Assembly: GCA_028283745.1 (NCBI GenBank)
Contig: JAPWJZ010000004.1
Coordinates: 62,001-126,000 of the forward strand
Length of the DNA: 64,000 nt
Reading direction: 5' to 3'
Source: Micavibrio sp.
Lineage (GTDB): Bacteria > Pseudomonadota > Alphaproteobacteria > Micavibrionales > UBA2020
The notes under the pieces are model-generated. The model made no database searches. It saw nothing but the letters and a program-made list of their open reading frames with translations, and was not told the origin of the DNA. A program made the translations under genes and the position numbers. Positions 42,479 through 57,175 of this stretch are shown piece by piece; the stretch's first letter is position 1, and each line of letters starts with the position of its first letter.

Positions 42479-44605
42479 TTAGCCCGCCTTGTTCACGGGC
42501 GGTTTGGGCGCGTTGCTGTTGCTGGCGGGTTTTTTGTCGTCCAGCAGGCCTTCGCGGCGGAACAATGCATCCGCATCCAGCTTGCGGCCCATCATCGACA
42601 CGAACAGACTGTCCGGATCAACCGTGCCGCCTTGCGAGTAGATGGTGTTGCGCAGGCGCTCCGACGTATCCTTGTCGTAGAGACCTTTTTTCTGGAACTC
42701 CGAAAACACGTCGGCTTCCAGCGCTTCCGCCCATTTGTAGCTGTAATAGCCGGCAGCATAACCGCCGGAGAACAGGTGGCCGAAGGCGGTTGACTGCGTG
42801 CCTGCAACGCGCGGGAAGACCCACGTGCTGTCCACAACGCTGTCTTCCAGCTTTTCGACGCTGTCGATGTCTTTGCGCGGTGTCGAATGCCATTTCATGT
42901 CGAGCTTGCCAAGGAAGGTCTGGCGAAGGCCCATGTAGCCTGCGTCAAAGTTTTCCATGTCGGCAATTTTCTTGATGACGGCGGGGTCAAGCGGCGCGCC
43001 GGTGACGGGGTGCTTGGCAAAAGTATCCAGCACTTCCTTCTCCTTCGCCCAGTTTTCCTGCAGCTGCGACGGCAGCTCGACGAAGTCCCACTTTACGCTG
43101 GTGCCGGTGAGGGAACCGTAATCGCCGCGCGCCAGCAGGGCGTGCAGGCCGTGGCCGAATTCGTGGAACACAGTGCGCACTTCGTCCAGCGACAGCTGCG
43201 TCGGGTTGCCGGGGGTGGGTTTTGCAAAGTTGCAGGTATTGGTGACGATGGAGAACTGGTTTTCGCCTTCTTCATTCAGCCCGCGGTTGCGGAAGGTGCT
43301 CATCCACGCGCCGTTGCGCTTGGCGCCGGCACGGGCGTAATAATCGCCGTAGAACAGGCCGATCATTTCGCCGGAGGCTTTGTCCTTCACCTCGTAAACC
43401 TTCACATCGGGGTGGTAAACGGGGTACTTGTCCTTCGTTTCCGTCATCTCGATGTTGAATTGTTTTTCAGCATGACGGCGCAGGCCGTCCATCACCTTGT
43501 CGAGGTCGAAGTAGGGACGCAGCTCCTCGAGGTCCATCGAGTAGGTTTCCTCCTTCAGCTTGCGGGCATAATAGGAAAGGTCCCACGGCTTCAGGTCTTT
43601 CAAACCGTCCGTCTTCTCGGCGTAATCGGTGACTTTTTTCACGAAGTCCTCGGCGGCGGGGCGGTACACTTCCTCGTTGCGCTTCAGGAAGGCATTGACG
43701 GTTTCGGGCGTTTTCGCCATGCGGTCATCAAGGACAAACGCGGCATAGCTGTCAAAGCCCAGCAGTGTCGCTTTCTTTTCGCGCTGCTCGACGATATCCA
43801 GCACCACCTGGCGGTTATCAAACGCGCCGCCGAAGGCTATGTCGCTGCGCGCTTTGTAGATTTCTTCGCGCAGGGCGCGGTTTTCCGAATATTCGGCAAT
43901 GTCGATCGGCGGCGGCGACAGCTTGATGAGCCATTTGCCGGTCAGGCCTTTTTCTTCCGCTGCATGCTTGTATTGCGCTTTCACGCGGTCCGGCAGGCCC
44001 TTCAGGTCCGCTTCATCGTCGATCACCTTTTCATAGGCGTTGGTCGCCTTCAGCGTGTTGTTGCGGAAGGTGGTGCCAAGCTCGGCCAGTTTTTCGCTGG
44101 CGGCGCGATATTCAAGCTTCTGCGCATCGTCCAGCAGCGCGCCGCTGCGCACGAAGGCCGTATAGGTTTCGGTCAGCAGCATGGATTGTTCGGGGGTCAG
44201 CTTCAAACTGGCGCGCTGGTCGTAAACTTCCTTCACGCGCTTGAACAGGTCCTGGTCCATCATCACGTCGCTGCTGTGCTGCACGCTGAGAACTTCGATC
44301 TTCGGCTCGACCGCGCGCATTTCGTCGCTGCCGTTGTTGCCGATGATGTTGCCGAAAATGGTCTGCGCGCGCGACAGGTTGCGGCCAGTGAATTCCAGCG
44401 CCTCGATCGTGTTCTGGAAGCTGGCGGGGGCGCGGTTGTTTTTAATATCGGCGACCTGCTGCTTTGCTTCGGCAATATAATGCTCGATTGCGGGCAGGAA
44501 ATGCTCGGTCTTCACGACATCGAGCGGCGGCGCGCCATAGGGCAGATCCTTGTAATCAACCAGCGGGTTGCCAACAAGGTTGGCCGGAACGGGGGATTTG
44601 GACAT
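42479..44605 (-). CDS. M3-family oligopeptidase (oligopeptidase A/Dcp-like)
   Basis: A 708-aa zinc metallopeptidase. The HEFGH motif is at 481-485 (FHEFGHGLHALLARG) and the expected glutamate follows within VKWDFVELPSQ. Overall length and the N-terminal NPLVDYKDLPYGAPP fit cytosolic oligopeptidase A or dipeptidyl carboxypeptidase. No signal peptide, so it degrades short cytosolic peptides. ATG 44605 follows AAAGG. The C-terminal tail after about residue 690 reads KPASNSNAPKPPVNKAG, similar to tails on the VWA and GH13 proteins. Inverted repeats lie in its promoter. Confidence 0.93.
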   Translation of the reverse strand: MSKSPVPANLVGNPLVDYKDLPYGAPPLDVVKTEHFLPAIEHYIAEAKQQVADIKNNRAPASFQNTIEALEFTGRNLSRAQTIFGNIIGNNGSDEMRAVEPKIEVLSVQHSSDVMMDQDLFKRVKEVYDQRASLKLTPEQSMLLTETYTAFVRSGALLDDAQKLEYRAASEKLAELGTTFRNNTLKATNAYEKVIDDEADLKGLPDRVKAQYKHAAEEKGLTGKWLIKLSPPPIDIAEYSENRALREEIYKARSDIAFGGAFDNRQVVLDIVEQREKKATLLGFDSYAAFVLDDRMAKTPETVNAFLKRNEEVYRPAAEDFVKKVTDYAEKTDGLKDLKPWDLSYYARKLKEETYSMDLEELRPYFDLDKVMDGLRRHAEKQFNIEMTETKDKYPVYHPDVKVYEVKDKASGEMIGLFYGDYYARAGAKRNGAWMSTFRNRGLNEEGENQFSIVTNTCNFAKPTPGNPTQLSLDEVRTVFHEFGHGLHALLARGDYGSLTGTSVKWDFVELPSQLQENWAKEKEVLDTFAKHPVTGAPLDPAVIKKIADMENFDAGYMGLRQTFLGKLDMKWHSTPRKDIDSVEKLEDSVVDSTWVFPRVAGTQSTAFGHLFSGGYAAGYYSYKWAEALEADVFSEFQKKGLYDKDTSERLRNTIYSQGGTVDPDSLFVSMMGRKLDADALFRREGLLDDKKPASNSNAPKPPVNKAG

Positions 44606-44647
44606 AGGGCGACCTTTCATGCTTTATGTCTAGTCATTCTAAAACTT

Positions 44648-44766: not shown

Positions 44767-46992
44767 TCAGATTTTTGCGCGTTTTAACCGCACTGCGTTC
44801 AAAATAACGCAGACCGAACTCAGCGACATGGCCGCCGCACCCACCATGGGGCTGAGCAGTATTCCGAAGAACGGGTACAGCACACCCGCCGCTACCGGAA
44901 TGCCAAGCGCGTTATAGGCAAAGGCGAAAAACAGGTTCTCGCGGATATTGCCCATGACCGCCAGCGACAGCCGCCGCGCACGCAGAATGCCGCCAAGGTC
45001 GCCCTTTACCAGCACAATCCCCGCGCTTTGCAGGGCAATGTCCGTGCCGCTGCCCATGGCAATACCCACATCTGCCTGTGTCAGCGCGGGCGCATCGTTG
45101 ATGCCGTCCCCCGCCACGATCACCGCATGGCCCTTTTGCTGGAAGTCCCGCACGATGCGGATTTTATCTTCCGGCATCATACCCGCCATGACAGATTTAA
45201 TGCCAAGGATTTTGGCAACCGCATCCGCCGTATGCTGGTTGTCGCCCGTCACCATCACAACCTCGATGCCGAGCGCCTGCAATTCGCGCACGGCCTTCTC
45301 GCTCGAGGTCTTTACGGGGTCGGCAACGGCGATAAGCCCGGCAAGCCTGCCTTCAACCCCGACGTAAAACACGGTCGACCCCGCATCCTGCAAAAAACCG
45401 GCGCGGTCATTGAGGGGGGTGACATCCACCAGCATATCCGCCATCAACTGCGCATTGCCAAGGGCGGCGGCATGGCCGCCCGGCATGCCGGTTATGCCCT
45501 TGCCGGTAACGGCCTTGAAGTTCGGCGCGGCATCCACATGCAGGGCGCGGGCCTTGGCGGCGACCAGCACGGCCTGCGCCAGCGGGTGTTCGCTCGCCTT
45601 TTCAAGCGCGGCGGCATAGGACAATAACTGCACATCCGTAAAGCCTTCGGCCGGAATGACCGCGGTCACGGCAGGGTGGCCTTCCGTCAGCGTGCCGGTT
45701 TTGTCGATGACCAGAATATCCGCATGCGCCAGTTTTTCCAGCGCCGCCGCCTGCTGCACCAGAACGCCGGCTGCCGCACCCCTGCCAATGCCGACCATCA
45801 TCGACATCGGTGTTGCAAGACCCAGCGCGCAGGGGCAGGCAATAATCAACACCGATACCGCGCAAATAATCGCATAGCTTAAAGACGGCTGAGGCCCCAG
45901 CACGAACCAGAACACAAAGCTGATGAGCGCCGCGGTAATAACCGCGGGCACGAACCAGCTTGAAATATTATCCGCCAAGGCCTGAATGGGCGCACGACTG
46001 CGCTGCGCCTGCGCCACCAGCTGCACAATATGCGCCAGCAGCGTATCCGCCCCCACCTTTTCCGCGCGCAGCGTAAAGCTGCCGCGCTGGTTAAGCGTGC
46101 CGGCCGTTACCGCCGCGCCCGAGGCTTTGGTGACGGGCATCGCCTCCCCCGTCAGCATCGATTCATCCACATGGCTTTCGCCGTCTTCGATCGTGCCATC
46201 CACCGGCACGCGCTCGCCGGGGCGGACGCGCAGCAGGTCGCCCGCTGCAATTTCCTCCAGCGGCACATCGGTTTCCTCGCCGCCTTTAATGCGGCGGGCG
46301 GTTTTGGGCGCAAGGCCGATCAGGGCGCGAATGGCATCCGCCGTTTTTTCGCGGGCGCGCAGTTCCATCAGCTGACCCAACAGGGCAAGGGTGGTAATTA
46401 CCGCCGCCGCTTCAAAATATACCGGCACGGTGCCGTCCTTGTGGTGAAACGCCGGCGGAAAAATGCCCGGCACCAGCGTTGCCGCAAGGCTGTAAATATA
46501 TGCAACGCCGGACCCCAGCGAGATAAGCGTGAACATATTCGGCATGCCCGCCGCAAGCCCCTGCCAGCCGCGCGTCAAAAACGGCCAGCCCGCCCACAGA
46601 ATAACCGGCGTTGAAAACAGCATTTGAAAGCGGATGGAGAATGACGGTGAAATCCAGCTGCCGTCGCCGAACAGGTGCCGCGACATTTCAATCAAAAAAA
46701 TCGGCGCGGTCAAGAACACCGCCGCCCAGAAGCGGTTCAGCATCGTCTCGAATTCAGGGTTCGGCGCGGCCTCGGCCGAAATAATCTCCGGCTCCAGCGC
46801 CATGCCGCATTTAGGGCAGCTGCCGGGGCCTGCCTGCCGCACATCATCGTGCATGGGGCAAATGTACATGACGGTTTCGCCGGCTTTTGGCACGGGAGCT
46901 TCTGCCGCAGTTATATTTGCATCACCGTGGGCGCAGCAGGCGCCTTCTTCTGCGCTACCGTCGTGGTGATGTTCGTCTTTGGTTTCTGTCAT
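44767..46992 (-). CDS. Copper-translocating P-type ATPase with heavy-metal-binding N-terminus
   Basis: A 741-aa P1B-type ATPase that exports Cu(I) from the cytosol. The N-terminal domain is a short cysteine-rich heavy-metal-binding domain (YICPMHDDVRQAGPGSCPKC; C45, M47, H48, C59, C62), not an HMA ferredoxin fold. About eight membrane segments follow, with the CPC motif near 385 (IIACPCALGLATP), DKTGT near 428 and TGDNQHTA/GDGINDAPAL. The N-terminus is rich in H, D and E. Its start overlaps the SpeD stop (ATGA), so it is translationally coupled to polyamine biosynthesis. No CopZ, CueR or CueO gene is adjacent. Confidence 0.95.
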   Translation of the reverse strand: MTETKDEHHHDGSAEEGACCAHGDANITAAEAPVPKAGETVMYICPMHDDVRQAGPGSCPKCGMALEPEIISAEAAPNPEFETMLNRFWAAVFLTAPIFLIEMSRHLFGDGSWISPSFSIRFQMLFSTPVILWAGWPFLTRGWQGLAAGMPNMFTLISLGSGVAYIYSLAATLVPGIFPPAFHHKDGTVPVYFEAAAVITTLALLGQLMELRAREKTADAIRALIGLAPKTARRIKGGEETDVPLEEIAAGDLLRVRPGERVPVDGTIEDGESHVDESMLTGEAMPVTKASGAAVTAGTLNQRGSFTLRAEKVGADTLLAHIVQLVAQAQRSRAPIQALADNISSWFVPAVITAALISFVFWFVLGPQPSLSYAIICAVSVLIIACPCALGLATPMSMMVGIGRGAAAGVLVQQAAALEKLAHADILVIDKTGTLTEGHPAVTAVIPAEGFTDVQLLSYAAALEKASEHPLAQAVLVAAKARALHVDAAPNFKAVTGKGITGMPGGHAAALGNAQLMADMLVDVTPLNDRAGFLQDAGSTVFYVGVEGRLAGLIAVADPVKTSSEKAVRELQALGIEVVMVTGDNQHTADAVAKILGIKSVMAGMMPEDKIRIVRDFQQKGHAVIVAGDGINDAPALTQADVGIAMGSGTDIALQSAGIVLVKGDLGGILRARRLSLAVMGNIRENLFFAFAYNALGIPVAAGVLYPFFGILLSPMVGAAAMSLSSVCVILNAVRLKRAKI

Positions 46993-47387
46993 GGGTTATT
47001 CGCAAGGTTACGGGGTTGGGCCGGTAAAGCTGCTGGGGTTTTGCCGCGGCGGCAGGCGGTGGTTTCCTGCCGTTGCGGTTGAAAATAATCGGCAAGCACA
47101 TCCGCGCCTCTCGCGGCATCGCAATTGCCGCAGACAAAAATATCAAGCGCGACATAGCCGGTTTCCGGCCAGGTATGGATGCTGATGTGTGATTCCGCCA
47201 GAATAGCGACGCCCGTCACGCCCGCCGCTGCGCCAAAGCTGTGCAGCTGCACGCTGATCACGGTGGCGCGGCAGGCCTCCGCCGCGCGGCGCAGGGCAAT
47301 TTCAATGCCGTCTATATCCTGCATATTGCGGCAGCCCCAGAAGTCGAGCAGCAGGTGCATGCCGGGCGTTGCCTGTTCGGCCGCCAT
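46989..47387 (-). CDS. speD: S-adenosylmethionine decarboxylase proenzyme
   Basis: About 132 aa, a class 1b pyruvoyl enzyme that makes decarboxylated SAM, the aminopropyl donor. The self-cleavage site is E65-S66 in AESHISIHTWPE, so S66 becomes the pyruvoyl group. HLLLDFWGC is the typical start. ATG 47387 lies two bases after the membrane-protein stop; an in-frame ATG at 47429 with AAGGA upstream is an alternative but would overlap that gene by 40 bp. A membrane spermidine synthase lies three genes upstream, giving a complete aminopropylation route. The C-terminus overlaps the copper ATPase start. Confidence 0.94.
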   Translation of the reverse strand: MAAEQATPGMHLLLDFWGCRNMQDIDGIEIALRRAAEACRATVISVQLHSFGAAAGVTGVAILAESHISIHTWPETGYVALDIFVCGNCDAARGADVLADYFQPQRQETTACRRGKTPAALPAQPRNLANNP

Positions 47388-47389
47388 CT

Positions 47390-48499
47390 CTATGACGCCT
47401 TCTGTTGCAGCAGCAGGATCTTTTTCCATTCGGAATCCTTCAGGTTATGCTTCCAGATGAAGGCATCGAGAATATAGTGGACGGATTGCGGCAGCGACAG
47501 CAGCGGCACCAGCCAGACCATCATATCGTCCGACCGCACGGGCGGCAACAAACGAAAGCCCGCAAAAATGCCGCCATGCTCCCGCCAGATCAACCCGTCC
47601 CAGACACCTTCCTCGAAAAAGGCCAGCGCAAAAAGCAGCCCTATATATATGGGTATCATGCGGGCGGAAAACAGCCTTGCCGTTGTAGCCGGAATATACG
47701 CTGGTTTTTCAATCATATAGTCGCGCTGGTTGCGGCCATAAACCCAAATCAGCGCCATGTACGGAATGCCATGGGCAATGACGTTCGTGGCGGTAAAGGC
47801 AAGGTCGTTGTTGAAAACCACAATGCCCACGCCCCACGATAGCACGGTGCCAAGCAGCAGCAGGTTTTTCGGCAGGTTCACCCCGCCGTCACGCCAGCTG
47901 AAAACAGCTTCCTTCATCACGTAGGCTGCCAGCATGGCGCCGTAGAGCGCCGCTGTAATATTGGCTACCAGCGGCGCGTTGAACTGCACAAAATCACCAT
48001 CCACGAACCAGCTGAAGTTGCGGTGGTGGCAGTGCCAGTAAAGCAACGGGAACAACGTGGCCATGTAAATGACCGACTGGTCCAGGATCCGCGTCAACTT
48101 TGGCCGCAGCCGTTCGCCCCGCGCGTAAATCATCATGAAGCCATATTGCTGGCGCATAAAGTGGAAGACGGCAAGGTAGGCCAGCACCCGCCAGAAAGCG
48201 AGCGCGCTGATACTATACAGCATGGTGCCCGCCACCCATGCGAAAAGCGGCGCCAGGATATACAGCGCGCGTCGCTTTTGCATTTCCGCGCGGTCCAGGT
48301 AGGTGCGGAAAATAGTGCTGTAAACGTGGCTGACATCCACCCCCACCACCAGCAGCAGCCAGAGCCACGGCGGCGTATCCCCCAGTTCCTCAATGGACCC
48401 GCGCAATGCCACCACCGCCAGCGTCACGATAAACGCCGGGCCAATGATGAACCCGAGGTCGATGTTGCGATTGGCAATCCATGGCTGGCGCAGGCTCAT
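47390..48499 (-). CDS. Polytopic membrane protein of unknown function
   Basis: A 369-aa integral membrane protein with about eight to nine hydrophobic segments. No family is recognised. Potentially useful histidine-rich stretches are VGVDVSHVYSTIFRTY (about 53-68), VFHFMRQQYGFMM and YWHCHHRNFSWF (about 155-166), which could bind a metal or haem, but this is speculation. It overlaps the FAD oxidase gene by ATGA and is followed two bases later by speD, so it belongs to the polyamine operon. Possible roles are transport or a membrane oxidoreductase subunit. Confidence 0.8.
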   Translation of the reverse strand: MSLRQPWIANRNIDLGFIIGPAFIVTLAVVALRGSIEELGDTPPWLWLLLVVGVDVSHVYSTIFRTYLDRAEMQKRRALYILAPLFAWVAGTMLYSISALAFWRVLAYLAVFHFMRQQYGFMMIYARGERLRPKLTRILDQSVIYMATLFPLLYWHCHHRNFSWFVDGDFVQFNAPLVANITAALYGAMLAAYVMKEAVFSWRDGGVNLPKNLLLLGTVLSWGVGIVVFNNDLAFTATNVIAHGIPYMALIWVYGRNQRDYMIEKPAYIPATTARLFSARMIPIYIGLLFALAFFEEGVWDGLIWREHGGIFAGFRLLPPVRSDDMMVWLVPLLSLPQSVHYILDAFIWKHNLKDSEWKKILLLQQKAS

Positions 48500-50115
48500 A
48501 GCTCCGTCACCACCGCGTGGCCCAGGTGCGCAAGCGTATTTTCCGCGGCGCGTACGCCGTGGGTATAAGCTTCCTCGAAAATTGAAATGCCACTCATGTC
48601 TGAATGGGCGCGGAAAATGGGCGGTTTTTGCGCCAGGGCCGCCCGGCGGGCAGCCCCCCAGATAAACCCCGGCGTGGGCCGCACCATGGCATGGCCCCAG
48701 ACCATGACATCAAGGCTTTCAACCTTGTCTTTCAGGTCGGGATGCACGGCAAAAAGCTCCTGCAGAAAAACATCCCGCCACTGGCCATAGGTTTTATCAA
48801 GCGCTTCATGCCGCGCATCCTTTGGCGGCAGGTGCGTTAATGGCCAGTAATAGGTCAGCACCGTCTGCCGCTGCACCATATTGATGCTCTGGTGCGTCGC
48901 CACAACATAGCCGAGCAGCTTGCTATCATAAATCATGTTGTCCCACGCCATATCCACGCCCTTGCCTTCCGGCAGAGCGGATAGCGTGATGTTCGCGACA
49001 ACCCACGGTGCATAAGAAAAATCATGCGCAGGCGGCGCATTAGGCGTAAGACGCTGGCCGATAAATTGCGGCATGGCCATAACCGCCGCGCGGGCGCGGA
49101 TGCGGCGGGAAATGTTGGCGGCATGGTCAAAATAGTCAACCACAACGCCGCCCGCCTCCTCCCGCACCGCAAAAGCAAGCGCATTGGGAATGATGTTTTG
49201 TGCAACCCGTTTCATCAGCGCGTGGGCCAAAAACCCGTTGCCTTCCGGCCACGTCACGACATCCTGGTTGGTGCCGTTGGCCGCAATGCCGGTGCGGGCG
49301 GTAAAATAATGCATGCCCGCCCAGGCCGATGTTTCATCCGCCCGCGTGCCGTAGTCATCGCGGCAGGAATAATCCACGTACCAGCGCAGGTAGGGGGATG
49401 TATAGCCCTCGCCCGCCATCCAGTCGGCCATTGTCATGGCATCAAACTTCAGCCATTCGGCGTCCTGCGAGCTTTCATCGACGGGAATGGCAAAAATTTT
49501 GCGGCCGTCTGCGCCGCGCTTGTTTTTGCAGGCGTCCATCCATTTAAAGAAGCGGTCGTATTGTGCCTTGTCGTCATCACTCGCGCCGATAACGGGCACA
49601 AGCCCTTCCTGCCAGCGCCCGCGAATATAAAGCCGCTCCTCAGGGTCGGAGCAGAGGTAATATTCGTTGTATACCGGCACGCCCGCCCCGTTTGCACCGG
49701 TAATAATTCCCAATTCTTCAAACAGCTTTCGCGGCGCGCGGGATTCTTCTGTCAGCAGCGGCACGTAATGCGCGCCCCACGGGTAGGCGGATACGTTGTT
49801 TCTCCCGCTTTGGGCATTGCCGCCCGCGGTTTCTTCCAGCTCCAGCAGGCTGAAATTCGTGGCGCCCGCCTTGTGCAGACGATAAGCCGCGCCAAGCCCC
49901 GCAATACCGCCGCCGATAATGACAACGTCTTTTTCGGTTGTTTCCGTGATTTCAGGGAATGCCGGCGACCACAGCTTGTGCCCGCGCGCGGCGGATGCGC
50001 CGAGGATACGGCCGGATACCGGTTTTGCCGCAGGCGCAATACTTAAACGCCCAAGCCCCAGCGCCGATAAAAACGCCGCGCCGCCAAGCATAAAACTGCG
50101 CCGGGTGAACTTCAT
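48496..50115 (-). CDS. Tat-exported FAD-dependent amine oxidase family protein
   Basis: A 539-aa flavoprotein. The N-terminus has a twin-arginine signal (TRRSFMLGGAAFLSALG, RR at 5-6), so it should be folded and exported to the periplasm. The FAD motif GGGIAG is at 68-73 within VVIIGGGIAGLGAAYRL. It belongs to the monoamine/polyamine oxidase-like class, so in this context oxidation of spermidine or a related amine is plausible. Electron acceptor may be oxygen or a membrane carrier. It follows the spermidine synthase by 12 bases and is coupled to the polytopic membrane protein. Confidence 0.87.
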   Translation of the reverse strand: MKFTRRSFMLGGAAFLSALGLGRLSIAPAAKPVSGRILGASAARGHKLWSPAFPEITETTEKDVVIIGGGIAGLGAAYRLHKAGATNFSLLELEETAGGNAQSGRNNVSAYPWGAHYVPLLTEESRAPRKLFEELGIITGANGAGVPVYNEYYLCSDPEERLYIRGRWQEGLVPVIGASDDDKAQYDRFFKWMDACKNKRGADGRKIFAIPVDESSQDAEWLKFDAMTMADWMAGEGYTSPYLRWYVDYSCRDDYGTRADETSAWAGMHYFTARTGIAANGTNQDVVTWPEGNGFLAHALMKRVAQNIIPNALAFAVREEAGGVVVDYFDHAANISRRIRARAAVMAMPQFIGQRLTPNAPPAHDFSYAPWVVANITLSALPEGKGVDMAWDNMIYDSKLLGYVVATHQSINMVQRQTVLTYYWPLTHLPPKDARHEALDKTYGQWRDVFLQELFAVHPDLKDKVESLDVMVWGHAMVRPTPGFIWGAARRAALAQKPPIFRAHSDMSGISIFEEAYTHGVRAAENTLAHLGHAVVTEL

Positions 50116-50127
50116 GGCGTTGCGCCC

Positions 50128-51642
50128 CTAGTAAATCAGGTATTCCGACCATTCCTGATCGAAATACCGCACCAGCGCCTGATCATCCAGCCGCTGAATT
50201 TTTGTGTCCACATGCGCCATGTCGGGCGCGAAATAGAACATATCCTGAACCGTGCGCGGCGTAACGTAGCGCAGGCCCGCAGGGAAATTGCCGGGAATTT
50301 TATAATCCGACAAACTGCCAATAACGAAACCCCACTCGCCGAAGGACGGCACGTATACATGAAACGGCGCCGTCTTCAGGCCCACAGCCGCCATGGTGTT
50401 GTCCACGCACCAGAAAGATTTACGCGCGATGAGCGGTGAAGTGCTTTGCACCACAACAAGGCTTTTATCATTCAGCACGCCCTTGAGCTCGTTATAAAAC
50501 GTGGTTGAATAGAGCTTGCCGATGGAATAGTTGGAAGGGTCCGGCACGTCAATAAACACGGCGTCAAACACGGGCGGCTTTTCTTCCCGCGCCGCCTGGC
50601 GTATCCAGACGAAGGCGTCCTGGTTGATGACGGTCAGCTTCGGGGATAGCAGCGATTTTCCGTTCAGCGACGTCAGCATTTCATTGCTGGAAAAAAGCTT
50701 GGTCATGGCGGGGTCAAGGTCAACCATCGTCACATGCTCAACTGCCGGATATTTTAATATCTCGCGCAGGGCAAGGCCATCACCGCCGCCGATGATGAGG
50801 ATATTGCGCGGGTTTTCAAGCGCGGCCATGACGGGATGCACCAGCGCTTCATGGTAGCGGTATTCATCAACCGAGCTGAACTGCAGGTTGGAATTTAGAA
50901 ACAGCCGCAAATCCTGCGCCGTGCGGGTAATGACGATGCGCTGGTACGGGGTTGACTGCGAAAAAATGACATGCCCCTGATAGGCGCTGCCTTCCGCAAT
51001 CGACATGATTTTGTCGGAGTAAATGAAACCAAACGTCAGCCCCACCATGGCCAGAATGGCCGTCAGCTTGTGCGCGCGGTGGGAGGGAATTTCATCATTC
51101 AGCGCATACAGCACCCAGATGGCAACGGAAATATTCAACATGCCAAACAGGAAGCTTGATTTCACCAGCCCGAGATACGGCACCAGCACCATGGGAAACA
51201 GCACGGAGGCGAATAACGCGCCAAGGTAGTCAAAAGCCAGAACGCGGGATACGAGATCCTTGAATTCAAACCGGTCCTTCAAAATGCGCAGCAGCAGCGG
51301 AATTTCAATACCCACCAGCACGCCGATGATGGACACGATGAAGTACAAAAGAAAGCGGAAGGAAAACACGTGGTCAAACAGCAGCAGCAGCGCCATGGCC
51401 GAACAGCCGCCCACCACGCCAACCAGAATTTCAACGCGGATGAAATAGCCGATAAGGTTGCGGTGCAAATATTTCGTCAGCCATGAACCGATACCCATGG
51501 CAAAAAGGTAGCTGCCGATCACGGTTGAAAACTGGGTGATTGAGTCGCCCAGCAAATAGCTGGCCGCCGTGCCGGCGATCAGCTCATACACCAGCCCGCA
51601 GGTGGCGATGACGATGACGGAGATTAAAAGAAGGTTGGCCAA
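50128..51642 (-). CDS. Membrane-embedded spermidine synthase-like aminopropyltransferase
   Basis: A 504-aa protein with about seven membrane segments (about 1-215) fused to a SpeE-like methyltransferase-fold domain (about 225-500). The SAM motif GGGDG is at 285-289, VDLDPAM follows, and DAVFIDVPDPSNYS matches the catalytic region of polyamine synthases. Fused membrane forms of SpeE are known but rarer than the soluble enzyme, so the substrate may be an envelope-associated amine. SpeD in the same operon supplies decarboxylated SAM. DUF350 lies six bases upstream. Confidence 0.9.
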   Translation of the reverse strand: MANLLLISVIVIATCGLVYELIAGTAASYLLGDSITQFSTVIGSYLFAMGIGSWLTKYLHRNLIGYFIRVEILVGVVGGCSAMALLLLFDHVFSFRFLLYFIVSIIGVLVGIEIPLLLRILKDRFEFKDLVSRVLAFDYLGALFASVLFPMVLVPYLGLVKSSFLFGMLNISVAIWVLYALNDEIPSHRAHKLTAILAMVGLTFGFIYSDKIMSIAEGSAYQGHVIFSQSTPYQRIVITRTAQDLRLFLNSNLQFSSVDEYRYHEALVHPVMAALENPRNILIIGGGDGLALREILKYPAVEHVTMVDLDPAMTKLFSSNEMLTSLNGKSLLSPKLTVINQDAFVWIRQAAREEKPPVFDAVFIDVPDPSNYSIGKLYSTTFYNELKGVLNDKSLVVVQSTSPLIARKSFWCVDNTMAAVGLKTAPFHVYVPSFGEWGFVIGSLSDYKIPGNFPAGLRYVTPRTVQDMFYFAPDMAHVDTKIQRLDDQALVRYFDQEWSEYLIY

Positions 51643-51648
51643 GGTCTA

Positions 51649-51870
51649 TCAGCCGTGAATGGCGGCGGCAATAATGATCGCCATGCCGATGAACATGGAG
51701 CCCAGGAAGATACCCATGGCAAGGTTCTGTTTTTCCACCAGTTCCTTCCAGATGCCGACCTTGGGCGTCAGCAGGTCGAAAATGACGAAGCTGATAGCAA
51801 AGGCAATAAGCCCGATACCGCTGAAAACGACGGCATTCAGCACATACTGCATGTTGACGATGGGATCCAT
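51649..51870 (-). CDS. DUF350 small membrane protein
   Basis: A 73-aa protein with two membrane segments (about 12-34 and 50-72) and a conserved polar loop LTPKVGIWKEL between them, matching the DUF350 family (E. coli YjfL type). DUF350 proteins occur with polyamine, PspA-like and SPFH genes in putative membrane-stress clusters, as here, but their activity is unknown. ATG 51870 has AAGGAGAG in front. It sits six bases before the spermidine synthase gene and 27 bases after the 46-aa gene. Confidence 0.85.
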   Translation of the reverse strand: MDPIVNMQYVLNAVVFSGIGLIAFAISFVIFDLLTPKVGIWKELVEKQNLAMGIFLGSMFIGMAIIIAAAIHG

Positions 51871-51897
51871 ATATTCTCTCCTTGTGAAGGCCTGCGA

Positions 51898-52038
51898 TTA
51901 TTTGTGGTAGTGGTTGGCGGCTTTATTGGCAACGCCCTGCCCCGTCATCCACGATGTAAAGACCATGCCGCGGTAATCCGCAAAAGCAAGGCCGCAAAGA
52001 AGGATGGCGCAATAAAGGGTATACACTTTCGGCATCAT
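51898..52038 (-). CDS. Small membrane or exported peptide, 46 aa
   Basis: A 46-aa ORF starting MMPKVYTLYCAILL with AGGAAA a few bases upstream (ATG 52038, or 52035). Residues 5-20 form one hydrophobic segment, or a short signal peptide ending LAFAD, followed by a polar tail GVANKAANHYHK. It fits exactly between the DUF4178 stop (12 bases away) and DUF350, in operon phase. It is too short to be assigned to a family and may be missed by standard gene calls. The good ribosome site and placement support a real gene. Confidence 0.65.
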   Translation of the reverse strand: MMPKVYTLYCAILLCGLAFADYRGMVFTSWMTGQGVANKAANHYHK

Positions 52039-52050
52039 TATTTTTCCTGT

Positions 52051-53364
52051 CTAACTATTGCCGCCGCGCGGGAAATCGCTATTTTCCCAGCGCTTGACTT
52101 CAAAGGCATTCAACCGCAAAAGGCGCAGCACCGGGTACACCGCCAGCAGCAGCGCCACAAGCCAGAAATTTCCCCACGGAGCAACATCGCGCACCAGCGC
52201 AAGATTAAGGTTTACGGGCTTGCCGCCGCGGATATCGTCGGAATCAATTTCATAGGTCATGTGGTAATGACCGGGCGGGATTTCGGACATATAATCGTTT
52301 TCCGACTGGCTGCCTTCCGTCCAGGGGCCGTCGCTGTCCGAGCCATGGTAATATTCAATCGCCTGCCGCAGCTCGGTATTTTCCTTGGTGTCTTCGTTGA
52401 CCAGCGTCACATCCGCCTCCGCCCAGCTATTGTCGACGCTGGCGTAGCCTTGCACCAGCACGTTGGACTGTTTTGGAATGTCGAAGGGCGCGCTGACGAA
52501 TGTTTTGGTTTCATCCCCCTTCACATGCTGCGCTGCCATGCTGACAAGCGGTTGGTGAGCGGAGGCCCCCAGCGCGGCAAAGTGGATGATGAAGGCGACA
52601 ATAAGCGCCGTCACGCCGACAATGCCGGTAGCCCGCGCATTGCCGGGCGCGGGCTGGTTGGGGGCAACACCCTTTTGCCGCGGCATAGCCTGCGTAATGC
52701 CAAACGCCGCTTTAATAGCATCACGCTCGATGTATTCGCACAGCGAGACGCTGATATCCTCATCCGCATACTCAAAAGACAGCATATAGGGCGGGCAAAT
52801 GTAATCTTCCGTCTTTGCCTTGTCGCCCTTGCGGATGCGCCAGTAAAACTCGCCCTTCACGTATTGCACAACCGGCGTATCACGCAAAAAAGCCTCGAAC
52901 GATAAATCGCCGCGCGGCACGGTGGTACGAAAACCCAGTTTATTAATGTCATCCTTCACGACGCGCACAAAGTTCCAGTGGCCGTCCTGCTGGATGATAA
53001 AGCGGAAACCATGGTAGGGGTTGAAGGCGAGGTATTCATCCCAGAAATACATGCCGGTTTTGTCGGATTTTTCGACATAACCGATGATTTCCCAATTCAC
53101 GTCATCCAGCTTGCCGCGCATGCCAATTTCAAGCAGCGTCGGGCGGAACTTCGCGTTGGTGTTCTGGATGACCTGAAGCCGTTCATCCGCCGTGTCGATC
53201 ACCGCGCCGCAATGAGCGCAGCTGGCGCTCAGGGTATGGCCTGCGGCGCGCAGCTGGATTTCCCCGCCGCAGGCAGGGCATTTTAAGCTGCGAGTCACCT
53301 TGACGCTTGCGGGCGGCGTTTCATTCGGCAGCGGGCCGGTGGCAATTTCGGGGGCCGTTACCAT
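52051..53364 (-). CDS. DUF4178 protein with zinc ribbon and C-terminal membrane segments
   Basis: A 437-aa protein. The N-terminus holds a zinc ribbon (about 24-45, CPACGGEIQLRAAGHT then CAHCGA). A DUF4178 domain follows at about 50-210 and the C-terminus has two membrane segments (about 243-262 and 397-418) around a probable periplasmic domain. It starts seven bases inside the upstream DUF4178 gene, so both are co-translated. DUF4178 proteins recur with SPFH, DUF350 and polyamine genes; no enzymatic activity is known. The zinc ribbon suggests binding to protein, lipid or nucleic acid. Confidence 0.85.
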   Translation of the reverse strand: MVTAPEIATGPLPNETPPASVKVTRSLKCPACGGEIQLRAAGHTLSASCAHCGAVIDTADERLQVIQNTNAKFRPTLLEIGMRGKLDDVNWEIIGYVEKSDKTGMYFWDEYLAFNPYHGFRFIIQQDGHWNFVRVVKDDINKLGFRTTVPRGDLSFEAFLRDTPVVQYVKGEFYWRIRKGDKAKTEDYICPPYMLSFEYADEDISVSLCEYIERDAIKAAFGITQAMPRQKGVAPNQPAPGNARATGIVGVTALIVAFIIHFAALGASAHQPLVSMAAQHVKGDETKTFVSAPFDIPKQSNVLVQGYASVDNSWAEADVTLVNEDTKENTELRQAIEYYHGSDSDGPWTEGSQSENDYMSEIPPGHYHMTYEIDSDDIRGGKPVNLNLALVRDVAPWGNFWLVALLLAVYPVLRLLRLNAFEVKRWENSDFPRGGNS

Positions 53365-54041
53365 CCGTCAAACGTCCGGAAATAGGTGCAGGAAAGTTCC
53401 TGCCATTCAACGTAGCGCCCCGTATAAACGCGCGTGCTGTCCTTGGTGAATTCGATGGAGGCAAATTCACCTTCACCATACAGCAGGTCAATCGACAGGC
53501 TGTCACGGCCCTTGGTTGCCCCCATGGGCAGCTCGCCCTCCGCGCCAATGCATTCGGCATCCTTAATATCGACGATATGATATTTTTTGCCGTTCAGGCT
53601 GAAGTATTTTCCCAGCATATCCGTCGGCGTTGCCTGCTGCTTGCCCACGTTCATGTCGTTGGCAAGCCTGGCGAGCGCCCTTCGTGTATCGTCATCCAGC
53701 ACATCCGTCACATCAAAGCATGGGGCATAAAAACCCTGTGCTTCGGCAAGCCAGCCCTTGCGTGCGTCGTCGGACACGATGAACCATTCGTTCCACGACC
53801 CGTCCTTCCAGCCCATTTTTATGCGGCCGACAATGCCAAAATGCACGCCGTTGTAAATGCCGCCGGTGCCGATTTGAAAGGGGCTTGTGTCTTCAGGCAC
53901 CTGCGCTGCCTCACCCATGCTTTTGATGCCGTCATCCACGCGCACCAGCATGGCGCGGCAATAAGGGCATACCGCATAGGCCGCAACGCTGGTGCGGAAC
54001 ACGACGTTTGCGCCGCAGGAAGGGCAGGGATAGGTTTTCAT
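53358..54041 (-). CDS. DUF4178 protein with N-terminal zinc ribbon
   Basis: A 227-aa soluble protein. The zinc ribbon is at 6-31 (CPSCGANVVF then CPYCRAML), then a DUF4178-like domain that includes YNGVHFGIVGRIKMGWKDGSWNEW at about 64-87 (split here by description) and a beta-rich end. It is a paralogue of the next gene but lacks the membrane part. Its 7-bp overlap with that gene and 22-bp gap to the SPFH gene place it second in the operon. Function unknown; the pair may form a heteromer at the membrane. Confidence 0.85.
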   Translation of the reverse strand: MKTYPCPSCGANVVFRTSVAAYAVCPYCRAMLVRVDDGIKSMGEAAQVPEDTSPFQIGTGGIYNGVHFGIVGRIKMGWKDGSWNEWFIVSDDARKGWLAEAQGFYAPCFDVTDVLDDDTRRALARLANDMNVGKQQATPTDMLGKYFSLNGKKYHIVDIKDAECIGAEGELPMGATKGRDSLSIDLLYGEGEFASIEFTKDSTRVYTGRYVEWQELSCTYFRTFDGW

Positions 54042-54063
54042 GCCAATGACATCTTGAAAAGCA

Positions 54064-55053
54064 TCATTTTATTTTAGACAGCAAATCCGCCTTTTTGGCA
54101 TTGAATTCGGCTTCGGTCAGAATGCCTTTTTTCAGCAGCTCCGACAGCCGCTCGATCATCACGATGGGGTCATCAGGCGCCGCGGCATTGCCGCCGCCCA
54201 TGCCCAGCGATTGCGACATCAGCTGCCCCATGGCAAGGCCTGCGCCCATGCCAACGCCCGCGCCGGCAACGCCGCCGGGGTTGCTGGCTGCCGCCGAAAT
54301 GCTGTCCGCCGCCTGGAACTGCGCGTATTGCTTAAGGTCGCCCAGCATGCGCATGGAAGATACTTTATCCAGTACCTTTTCCATTTCTTCCGGCAGCGAA
54401 ATGCTTTGCACGAAGAAATTTTTAAGCTCCAGCCCGTAGTTTTTGAAAACGGGCGCCGCAACATCCATCAATTTTGCCGAAAAGTCCGCCTGATTGGCGG
54501 CCATGTCGATGAAGGCGGTATCGCTTTTCGCAAGGAAGCTGCTGATGGCGGTCAGGACAGCGGTGCGTAGCTGGCCTTCCGCATCCTGCACGCCATAGCT
54601 TTCGCGCGTCCCAACAAGCTTTGTCCAGAACGCCTCGACATCCGCCACTTTATAGGAATAGTTGCCGAAAGCGCGAATGCGCAGCGCGCCGAATTCCTTG
54701 TCGCGGATGGTGATGGGCTGCGAGGTGCCCCACTTCTGGTCGGTAATTTCGCGGGTGGAGAAGAAATACACGTCTGACTTGAAGGGCGATTCAAAAAACT
54801 TGTCCCAGTTCTTCAGGTTGGTCAGCACAGGCAGGTTTTGCGTCGTCAGCGTATAGGTGCCGGGGCCGAACTTGTCGGCAAAAACGCCTTCGTTGAAGAA
54901 GACAGCCACCTGCGATTCCCGCACCACAAGCTTGCCGCCGTTTTGAATTTCCTTGTCCTGCATGGGGTAGCGGTAGGCCAGCACGCCAGTGGCAGGGTCC
55001 GTCCACTGGATGACGTCGACAAACTGCTTGGAAATGAAATTCATGAGACCCAT
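54064..55053 (-). CDS. SPFH-domain protein with SHOCT C-terminus
   Basis: A 329-aa protein with an SPFH/band-7 domain (about 25-245), a coiled-coil and glycine-rich stretch (about 245-290), and a C-terminal SHOCT motif (LLKKGILTEAEFNAKKADLL). It lacks a strong N-terminal membrane helix and resembles the virion-core/YdjI-like branch rather than flotillin or HflK. Such proteins form oligomers at membranes. GGAG precedes ATG 55053. It is the first gene of the ten-gene operon; the 130-bp upstream region should contain the promoter, although no clear hexamers were assigned. Confidence 0.88.
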   Translation of the reverse strand: MGLMNFISKQFVDVIQWTDPATGVLAYRYPMQDKEIQNGGKLVVRESQVAVFFNEGVFADKFGPGTYTLTTQNLPVLTNLKNWDKFFESPFKSDVYFFSTREITDQKWGTSQPITIRDKEFGALRIRAFGNYSYKVADVEAFWTKLVGTRESYGVQDAEGQLRTAVLTAISSFLAKSDTAFIDMAANQADFSAKLMDVAAPVFKNYGLELKNFFVQSISLPEEMEKVLDKVSSMRMLGDLKQYAQFQAADSISAAASNPGGVAGAGVGMGAGLAMGQLMSQSLGMGGGNAAAPDDPIVMIERLSELLKKGILTEAEFNAKKADLLSKIK

Positions 55054-55185: not shown

Positions 55186-56364
55186 TCAGCCATCGTGCTG
55201 CGATTGCGTCTTATTTTGGGCGTTTTTAGTTTGCGCGTTCACAGCATCAATGATGCGGGCGGCGACATAGGCCACCTCCTCCGCCGTTGTGCTGCGGCCA
55301 AGGGTAAGGCGCAGGCTGCCTGCAATATCTTCATCGGCAAGGCCTATCGCCTTCAGCACCGCCGAAGGCTTGCGGCTGACGGAGGCGCAGGCCGCGCCGG
55401 AAGAAGCGCAAACCTCGCCCCTCAGCGCCAGCATCAGACTATCGGCATCAACCCCTGCAAAGCGCACGTTTAACAGGCCCGGCAATATGTTGCTGCGACC
55501 GCCGTTTACGGCAATCGCAATGCCGCCCGCCTGCAATTGGTCCAGCAGGCTTTCAACCAGCACATGCTGGCGCTTTGCCTGCGCCCCCATGTCCCGCAAG
55601 GCAAGCCGGCAGGCCGCGCCAAAGCCGGCGGCCAGCGGCAGGGAAACACTGCCGGGGCGAAGGCGCTGCTGCAGGCCGCCGAACATCAAGGGCTTGATGG
55701 CAACGGGCGGTTTTGCACGCACGTACAACGCACCAATACCCGCCGGCCCGTAAATTTTGTGGGCGGAGAAGCTGAGCAGGTCAATGCCCAGCGCTGCAAC
55801 ATCCAGCGGCACCTTGCCGACGGCCTGCGTGGCATCCGAATGCAGCAATGCGCCCCTGGCATGGGCAATTTCCACCGCATGTTGCAGCGGTTGCAGCGTG
55901 CCGACCTCATGGCTGGCGGCGATGAGGGAAAGGACAAGGGTTTTGTCCGTCACCGCAGCCGCAATATCCTCCGCCCGCACAAAGCCCTGCGGCGTGACGG
56001 GCAGGACCTTGACGGTAAACCCCTGCTGCGCCAGTCCGGCGGCGGCTTTGGCAACACAGTCATGCTCGATCGCACTAATGATTATTTCACGGCGGTCGGT
56101 TGCCGCGGCGGCAAGCCCTAACAGCGCAAGGTTGCAGGATTCGGTGGCGCCGCTTGTCAGCGTCAATGCTTCGGGTTCCGCGTTTATGAGGCTGGCAATG
56201 CTGGCAAGCGCAGCCTGCAGAACGTTTGCGGCGGCGATACCGTTTGCGTGCGTACGGGCGTGCGGGTTGCCGAAGCCCGTACTGAAATAGGGCAGCATTT
56301 CCGCCAGCACTTCCGGCGCGCAGGGCGTGGTGGAATGATGGTCCATATAAACAGGTCGCTGCAT
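55186..56364 (-). CDS. Cysteine desulfurase (NifS/IscS-like)
   Basis: A 392-aa PLP enzyme that takes sulfur from cysteine. MDHHSTTP is the usual start, PLP lysine K203 is in SFSAHKIYGP, and the active cysteine C326 lies in SSGAACAS. ATG 56364 is one base after the xdhC stop; a longer start at 56445 would overlap that gene. Placement directly after xdhC suggests it supplies sulfur for the terminal sulfido ligand of the molybdenum cofactor, as NifS4 does for Rhodobacter xanthine dehydrogenase. No iscU or sufBCD gene is nearby, which supports this over general Fe-S assembly. Confidence 0.93.
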   Translation of the reverse strand: MQRPVYMDHHSTTPCAPEVLAEMLPYFSTGFGNPHARTHANGIAAANVLQAALASIASLINAEPEALTLTSGATESCNLALLGLAAAATDRREIIISAIEHDCVAKAAAGLAQQGFTVKVLPVTPQGFVRAEDIAAAVTDKTLVLSLIAASHEVGTLQPLQHAVEIAHARGALLHSDATQAVGKVPLDVAALGIDLLSFSAHKIYGPAGIGALYVRAKPPVAIKPLMFGGLQQRLRPGSVSLPLAAGFGAACRLALRDMGAQAKRQHVLVESLLDQLQAGGIAIAVNGGRSNILPGLLNVRFAGVDADSLMLALRGEVCASSGAACASVSRKPSAVLKAIGLADEDIAGSLRLTLGRSTTAEEVAYVAARIIDAVNAQTKNAQNKTQSQHDG

Positions 56365-56365
56365 G

Positions 56366-57175
56366 TCAGCGCGCGATGCCGAGGGATAAAAGCTCGGCCG
56401 CAATCGCAATGGCGATTTCACGGGGGTGCTTGCACGTACCGCCAAGGCCGATGGGGCAGCGCAGGTCTTTCAACTGCTCCGCCGGAACACCTTCGGCCTG
56501 CAACCGCTTTTCAAATTTAACGCGCTTGGTGGCAGAACCGATAAGGCCAAGATAGCCGAAAGCCCCCGCCCTGAACGCCGCGCTGACAAGGTCAAAGTCA
56601 AGGTCATGGCTGTGCGTCATCACGGCAACAAAGCTGCCTTTAGGCATGGCGCGCAGTTCCGCAACCGGCGTATCGGTAATAATTTTTTCAACACCCTTCG
56701 GCACAGCAGGTGGAAATTCGGCCGCGCGCGGGTCAACCCATTTCACGCGAAGGCCAAGACCGGCAAGCACCTGCACCACTTCGCGCCCCACATGACCCGC
56801 GCCGAACAGGTACAAAACCTTGCCCGCCGGCACAAAGGGCTCAAGGAATACCGAAACCGCGCCGCCGCAGCATTGCGCAAGGCGGGGGCCCAGCGGGTAA
56901 TTGCGCACTTCCGGCGCGCCGCTGCCCTTCAGCAGTTCGCGTGCCGCCGCAATCGCCTCAAATTCAAGGTTGCCGCCGCCGATGGTGCCGAACTGCTTAT
57001 CTTCCGTCACGACCATTTTTACGCCCGCTTCGCGCGGGGTGGAGCCCTTGGCCTCCATCACCGTCAGCAGCACGCAAGGCGTGTGGCTTTCCGTCAGCTG
57101 CGTTAAAACGGGCAGCCAGTCATGCGGCGCATGGCCAATGGGGGTGCCGTGTTCGGTCGTCAAGTCGTCGCTCAT
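56366..57175 (-). CDS. xdhC: XdhC, molybdenum-cofactor insertion/sulfuration chaperone
   Basis: A 269-aa XdhC protein that binds Moco and promotes its sulfuration before insertion into XdhB. The N-terminal region carries GSTPREAGVKM, followed by GTIGGGNLEF and QCCGGAVSVF typical of XdhC, and a Rossmann-like domain (LYLFGAGHVGREV) lies at about 130-145. It overlaps xdhB by ATGA and lies one base before the cysteine desulfurase, giving a compact maturation module. Confidence 0.94.
   Translation of the reverse strand: MSDDLTTEHGTPIGHAPHDWLPVLTQLTESHTPCVLLTVMEAKGSTPREAGVKMVVTEDKQFGTIGGGNLEFEAIAAARELLKGSGAPEVRNYPLGPRLAQCCGGAVSVFLEPFVPAGKVLYLFGAGHVGREVVQVLAGLGLRVKWVDPRAAEFPPAVPKGVEKIITDTPVAELRAMPKGSFVAVMTHSHDLDFDLVSAAFRAGAFGYLGLIGSATKRVKFEKRLQAEGVPAEQLKDLRCPIGLGGTCKHPREIAIAIAAELLSLGIAR

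Follow-up and report, generated by a model that had tools for sequence, protein, structure and literature searches.

A nine-gene polyamine-enzyme module shared by Micavibrio and many other bacteria encodes lysine-ended tails that are candidate aminopropyl acceptors

We analyzed a 64,000-nucleotide (nt) stretch of DNA from Micavibrio sp. (GenBank assembly GCA_028283745.1, contig JAPWJZ010000004.1, positions 62,001 to 126,000; hereafter the window), in which ten open reading frames (ORFs) on the minus strand, at positions 44767-55053 of the window, had been predicted to form an operon linking polyamine enzymes to copper export. The nine genes from the SPFH gene to the gene for the S-adenosylmethionine (AdoMet) decarboxylase SpeD are a real module found across many phyla, and the module probably acts at the cell envelope; the tenth gene, for a copper ATPase, is a bystander. 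The core of the module is already in print, and the unreported part is a small peptide with a single transmembrane (TM) segment that ends in His-Lys. The sequence comparisons suggest that its invariant lysine may be the acceptor long sought for a membrane-bound, spermidine-synthase-like enzyme with seven TM helices (7-TM). The ten genes and the two that flank them are as follows, with lengths in amino acids (aa).

54064..55053, minus strand: SPFH/band-7 protein with a C-terminal SHOCT domain, 329 aa (PF13421, 1e-76; PF09851, SHOCT)
53358..54041, minus strand: DUF4178 protein a, with an N-terminal CPxC zinc ribbon, 227 aa (PF13785, 1.1e-13)
52051..53364, minus strand: DUF4178 protein b, with a zinc ribbon and C-terminal TM segments, 437 aa (PF13785, 2.8e-9)
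51898..52038, minus strand: 46-aa single-TM peptide with the C-terminus -NHYHK, proposed aminopropyl acceptor (no Pfam or NCBIfam family)
51649..51870, minus strand: DUF350 membrane protein, 73 aa (PF03994, 4.1e-13)
50128..51642, minus strand: 7-TM spermidine-synthase-like aminopropyltransferase, 504 aa (Pfam Spermine_synth; NF002956, 5e-192)
48496..50115, minus strand: flavin adenine dinucleotide (FAD) amine-oxidase-superfamily protein with a twin-arginine-translocation (Tat)-type N-terminus, 539 aa (PF13450, PF01593)
47390..48499, minus strand: polytopic membrane protein of a new family, 369 aa (no Pfam family)
46989..47429, minus strand: SpeD, class 1b AdoMet decarboxylase (TIGR03330, 4.8e-33)
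44767..46992, minus strand: Cu(I)-type P1B ATPase with an HMBD and a CPC motif, 741 aa, a neighbor outside the module (Pfam, NCBIfam)
55186..56445, minus strand: nifS-like cysteine desulfurase, ancestral upstream neighbor of the ATPase and one boundary of the insertion (synteny)
42479..44620, minus strand: M3-family peptidase, oligopeptidase A-like (name from sequence), ancestral downstream neighbor of the ATPase (synteny)

Gene content and spread of the module

A check of the ORF positions bore out the predicted layout: gaps between the ten genes are 27 nt or less, and ATGA overlaps are found at the junction of the FAD protein with the membrane protein and at that of SpeD with the ATPase. Gaps of 22 nt (SPFH/DUF4178a), 12 nt (DUF4178b/peptide), 27 nt (peptide/DUF350), 6 nt (DUF350/7-TM enzyme) and 12 nt (7-TM enzyme/FAD protein) separate the other genes, and the two DUF4178 genes overlap by 7 nt. 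As called, speD shares 40 nt with the membrane protein gene; its true start may be the in-frame ATG near 47387, directly past the stop codon of the membrane protein gene. A simple promoter scan of the 132-nt gap between nifS and the SPFH gene found no minus-strand sigma-70-like site. Pfam and NCBIfam searches agreed with the predicted identities of the SPFH-SHOCT protein, the two DUF4178 proteins, DUF350, the spermidine synthase, the FAD oxidase, SpeD and the ATPase, and gave no match for the 46-aa peptide or the 369-aa membrane protein. The published band-7 variant of such clusters (discussed below) has two TM segments between band-7 and SHOCT; read from the sequence alone, the SPFH protein shows only an Ala/Gly-rich hydrophobic stretch, at residues 255-285.

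All nine genes from SPFH to SpeD are present in each of the six genomes of the genus, split over contigs in two of them, and a wider scan gave 80 loci with flanks, many from metagenome-assembled genomes. These loci come from Alpha- and Betaproteobacteria, Bacteroidota, Verrucomicrobiota, Melainabacteria-type, Leptospira, Bdellovibrio-type and other records, and their gene content varies. Because the block recurs in six congeners and in 80 loci of many phyla, its conservation is far beyond chance. The typical proteobacterial order is SPFH-DUF4178a-DUF4178b-peptide-DUF350-spermidine synthase-FAD-membrane protein-SpeD, and that of Bacteroidota is SpeD-DUF4178b-(DUF350)-spermidine synthase-FAD-membrane protein. 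The SPFH gene is found in type-A clusters and is missing from Bacteroidota-type loci; DUF350 went unrecognized in some otherwise complete clusters. In an Alteromonas plasmid cluster (L237:8539-9645), a toxic anion resistance gene, another stress-type partner, lies between SpeD and DUF4178, and a 510-aa protein ending in -SSGK is encoded nearby.

This recurrence upholds the predicted link of SPFH, DUF4178 and DUF350 to SpeD, an aminopropyltransferase and an oxidase in a conserved, operon-like module, as do passages of Ravi et al. 2024 (PMC11237479). The same passages remove the novelty that had been claimed for the set of synthesis and oxidation genes, since they report band-7/SHOCT, DUF350, AdoMet decarboxylase and polyamine oxidase together; the PspA group described there has the 7-TM spermidine-synthase fusion and DUF4178, both of which are also found here. 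The window combines DUF350, DUF4178 and the 7-TM fusion, like the DUF350/DUF4178 clusters of that paper, and band-7 with SHOCT, AdoMet decarboxylase and polyamine oxidase, like its band-7 variant. Those passages of PMC11237479 make no mention of the 46-aa peptide, Lys-ending tails, tail-DUF4178 fusion or 369-aa membrane protein, all of which are seen here, and beyond that paper the literature searched made no mention of DUF4178.

Lysine-ended tails beside the aminopropyltransferase

A small ORF ending in His-Lys was found in 83 of the 83 loci that have an interval between DUF4178b and the 7-TM enzyme. The tail reads YHK in 52 of them, FHK in 12 and otherwise in 19. As a control, only 9 of approximately 10,100 other small ORFs in the 80 loci end in -HK, and none of 160 antisense ORFs from the same intervals does so. 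The peptide ranges from about 43 to 90 aa and its sequence diverges ahead of the tail; within the tail, the codons vary synonymously (CAC/CAT for His, AAA/AAG for Lys) and the residues stay constant. Synonymous codon changes in the peptide outnumber nonsynonymous ones between congeners (11:4, 9:3 and 9:3), which indicates that the peptide is a real gene. The charges flanking its single TM segment suggest an orientation with the N-terminus inside and the C-terminus outside. The original prediction had listed the peptide, which is indeed present and unreported and is probably the key substrate, but had overlooked its invariant -HK end.

The lysine end is retained even where the tail sits on another protein. 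Several oxidase-type clusters have no separate peptide, and in these the tail is the C-terminus of DUF4178b, in the form -(GS)n-HK (L155, L157, L161, L165, L191, L192 and L194), with ends such as GGYSSGGGHK, GGYTSGGSHK, GGWSSGGSHK and YSSGGAHK. Oxidase-less clusters, many with PspA, encode exported TM proteins or lipoproteins with Gly/Ser-rich ends that finish in -GK, -VK, -IK or -PK (for example GGGPGSGK, RRGK, FGGK, FGRIK, FGRVK and GGIPK). Eleven tail proteins were searched, and none had a convincing Pfam or NCBIfam assignment.

Forty further Pseudomonadota loci were added from an even sample. Over all loci, a Lys-ending tail was found in 124 of 129 (95 HK, 23 GK, 3 VK, 2 IK and 1 PK), two of the 124 having been added from separate tail readings. 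For the extra set the rules for finding tails were permissive, and a few loci were read manually; the fair control is a uniform filter (at least 38 aa, a TM segment within the first 55 residues, and a Gly/Ser-rich end). With this filter a Lys-ending ORF was found in 102 of the 129 loci, and ORFs with any other last residue in 40 at most. Six of six plasmid-borne clusters, from Gemmatirosa, Novosphingobium, Burkholderia, Tritonibacter, Ensifer and Alteromonas, carry a Lys tail, and these cases are independent.

The enzymes and the neighboring copper ATPase

The 7-TM enzyme matches NF002956 over its full length, with 639 bits against a cut-off of 472. Its AlphaFold model (predicted local distance difference test score, pLDDT, 88.6) has seven TM helices, and the modeled catalytic domain is nearest to aminopropyltransferases (Z 34.4 over 269 residues to 1uir, the T. 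thermophilus aminopropyltransferase). The GGGDG motif for decarboxylated AdoMet is invariant, so that a GGG(D/E)G motif occurs together with a spermidine-synthase fold, and the YHE-type motif is likewise intact. Loss of a putrescine-binding Glu was considered as a sign of another acceptor and was dropped, the aligned E. coli SpeE being without this Glu as well. Within its own genome the 7-TM enzyme is the only clear aminopropyltransferase (a second Spermine_synth match is weak, at 31 bits), and SpeD is the only AdoMet_dc gene found. SpeD carries the ESHxSxHTWPE motif with the ES cleavage site, as expected of class 1b. Because positive charges are concentrated in loops 2-3, 4-5 and 6-7 of the 7-TM enzyme (2.2, 3.3 and 2.5 Lys plus Arg per loop, versus 0, 1.0 and 1.0 elsewhere), its catalytic domain is predicted to lie on the outer side of the membrane, together with the peptide tail and the Tat-type oxidase.

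The FAD protein begins with an RRSF motif, and RRx[FL] is found in 31 of 41 homologues; its profile matches monoamine oxidase, spermidine dehydrogenase and polyamine oxidases, and the viral contigs searched held no relatives of it. The 369-aa membrane protein has invariant residues H58, H113, H243, E296 and E297 in an alignment of 55 sequences. Its model (pLDDT 93.8) had no significant match in the PDB (best Foldseek E 0.47). The best VIA-align scores were Z 6.8 to rhodopsins and 5.7 to UbiA, and because matches this weak are common for helical bundles no fold was assigned. Outside the module the protein has distant homologues (L018, L019 and L020); those in genomes G006, G009 and G163 have unrelated neighborhoods that give no functional clue.

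The ATPase has a CPC motif in TM6 (IIACPCALGLATP), a C-terminal MSLSS segment and a TIGR01511 score of 573.7 bits, which together identify it as a Cu(I) P1B-1 pump. A count of neighborhoods goes against the predicted coupling of this pump to the polyamine genes. The ATPase lies downstream of SpeD in four of the six congeners, and a tblastn search of the loci of the 80 wider relatives gave no matches; 63 of these loci extend for at least 2.5 kilobases past the last module gene. In the other two congeners, G001 and G005, the nine genes are sited elsewhere without the ATPase, and the chromosome order is xdhB-xdhC-nifS-ATPase-M3 peptidase, with nifS and the ATPase directly adjacent. The outgroup G008, from another genus, likewise has the order nifS-ATPase-M3, and it gave no DUF4178 match. 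Since all three genomes keep this order without the module, the polarity of the event is clear: some members of the genus acquired the module between nifS and the ATPase, and the SpeD/ATPase ATGA overlap is the join. The earlier proposal of polyamine modification of the envelope under copper control therefore keeps its conserved and probably envelope-acting module and loses, by synteny, a misleading connection to copper.

A second P1B ATPase, 59% identical, is encoded in the same genome (G000:C5:814543-816717, L070), where it adjoins genes for a CsoR-like repressor and RND/CusA-like proteins (named from sequence) in a typical copper island; copper export is therefore independent of the window copy. 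In G003 (L017:2760-4765), the module-adjacent ATPase is read in two frames with approximately 55 residues missing, reflecting either a broken gene or an assembly error.

A possible protein modification and its relation to known systems

On balance we favor an explanation in which the nine genes constitute an envelope protein-modification module that aminopropylates the tail lysine, with the ATPase as a bystander. SpeD would make decarboxylated AdoMet, from which the 7-TM enzyme would move the aminopropyl group to the C-terminal lysine of the tail, at its side-chain amine; the acceptor would be the small, membrane-anchored product of a gene in the same operon. The lysine side chain is a butylamine, like putrescine, and the reaction would yield N-epsilon-(3-aminopropyl)lysine, a tail that resembles spermidine and is borne by a protein. 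In the -HK variant the exported FAD oxidase would oxidize this product further, and the SPFH, DUF4178 and DUF350 proteins may serve as scaffolds or sensors at the inner membrane. The genetic arrangement is that expected of such a system, in that an exported Lys-ending tail is encoded beside the aminopropyltransferase. For many phyla taken together, we give roughly even chances to a ribosomal peptide-modification system in which a SpeD-fed 7-TM enzyme makes the tail lysine spermidine-like, with further oxidation in the -HK variant.

Several points weigh against this explanation. Many of the 83 loci are related, so they do not amount to 83 independent tests. Several clusters are without a local SpeD, and a periplasmic catalytic domain would require decarboxylated AdoMet to cross the membrane. 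Five loci have no Lys tail, one of them at a contig end and others with an isolated spermidine synthase gene. The change between HK and non-HK occurs once on the enzyme tree, so that the association of the oxidase with the penultimate His is a single event, and with one independent transition we claim no correlated evolution of the two. The invariant C-terminal lysine could alternatively be a signal for recognition or anchoring.

Some probability must be given to a plain unit for polyamine synthesis and degradation, with the 7-TM enzyme converting putrescine to spermidine, the FAD enzyme oxidizing the spermidine and the peptide serving as an accessory subunit. The intact GGGDG and YHE-type motifs, the fold nearest to aminopropyltransferases and the lack of another clear spermidine synthase in the genome are all consistent with such a unit. 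We nevertheless consider it unlikely, as it leaves the cross-phylum invariance of the C-terminal lysine and the fusion to DUF4178b unexplained, and as fusions of this kind reportedly could not replace the deleted spermidine synthase of E. coli. We rate it equally doubtful that the lysine tail, instead of being modified, serves DUF4178, SPFH or DUF350 as a non-covalent signal for recognition or sorting. The tail can be fused to DUF4178b, and the peptide gene adjoins that of DUF4178b, as a sorting signal would predict. However, the last residue is Lys and never Arg in 124 loci, which suggests that amine chemistry matters, though the search targeted Lys, and the tail residue differs between the ligase systems discussed below and the aminopropyltransferase systems in step with the expected enzyme chemistry.

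Braun's lipoprotein likewise ends in Lys, and among the tail proteins several are lipoproteins or span the membrane once, and have flexible linkers and a Lys at the end; an L,D-transpeptidase might thus tie the tail lysine to peptidoglycan, with the polyamine enzymes tuning the attachment. An anchor of this type is a little less probable still: no L,D-transpeptidase occurs among the recurrent module genes, the neighbors being annotated in part only, and by itself an anchor leaves the constant partnership with SpeD and the aminopropyltransferase and the -GG tails of the ligase systems unexplained. A ten-gene unit that functionally couples copper export to polyamine modification of the envelope has the SpeD/ATPase overlap in this genome and the adjacency in four congeners in its favor, and is made highly improbable by the absence of the ATPase from the 80 relatives and by the module-free nifS-ATPase-M3 order in G001, G005 and G008.

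Modification of a tail lysine would bear on an older question. Li and colleagues in 2019 are said to have described MFS/spermidine-synthase fusion clusters with AdoMet decarboxylase, the membrane spermidine-synthase fusion and DUF350; the fusions reportedly failed to complement the E. coli deletion, and an aminopropyl acceptor other than putrescine was reportedly proposed but not specified. The enzyme set is the same as here, and we propose a specific acceptor. Membrane fusions of spermidine synthase that occur with SpeD and DUF350 are widespread, and the lysine tail provides a concrete acceptor candidate for them. Polyamine-like extension of protein lysine side chains is known from deoxyhypusine and from diatom silaffins. 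The former receives an aminobutyl group from spermidine and the latter carry eukaryotic long-chain polyamines, but neither involves the C-terminal residue of a bacterial membrane peptide.

The fungal enzyme NHMT also joins a 7-TM domain to a spermidine-synthase-like catalytic domain, as does the module enzyme, and it acts on a terminal residue of secreted proteins in the endoplasmic reticulum (PMC10349129). NHMT differs in that it methylates an N-terminal His and has Ile where a GGG(D/E)G motif would be needed, and its 7-TM region was reported to be unique to filamentous fungi (PMC10349129).

A parallel system is found in E. coli, where ygiC and yjfC are annotated as peptide-spermidine ligases, an activity attributed to Pederick et al. 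2023 in a passage of PMC12568646. The ygiBC and yjfIJKLMC operons resemble the module in that an exported protein with a Gly/Ser-rich tail is encoded beside a polyamine enzyme, and the yjf operon also has DUF350, shared with the module, and a PspA family gene alongside yjfC. They differ in having an ATP-grasp ligase and -GG tails where the module has an aminopropyltransferase and Lys-ending tails; the ten proteins studied here have no ATP-grasp ligase or DUF1190 domain by Pfam, which indicates that the module is not a YgiC-type system. The DUF1190 neighbors YgiB and YjfM, putative substrates of the ligases, end in SRSMGG and GHWGG. Among 30 further DUF1190 loci near YgiC-like ligases (L202-L231), 23 of 29 readings end in -GG, and at least three of the six others (L203, L224 and L230) look like wrong-frame readings. 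The -GG ends of DUF1190 proteins (L202-L231, L152 and L153) suggest the C-terminal glycine as the site of ligation.

Enzyme and tail seem to be matched across the two kinds of system: a ligase, joining spermidine to a carboxylate, goes with a Gly end, and an aminopropyltransferase, needing an amine, goes with a Lys end. If the lysine tail is aminopropylated, the module would carry out a protein modification of a kind new to bacterial envelopes, and envelope proteins with polyamine tails would form a general class. The module would then be tied to the recently reported peptide-spermidine ligases as the amine-side counterpart of YgiC and YjfC, which add spermidine to peptides.

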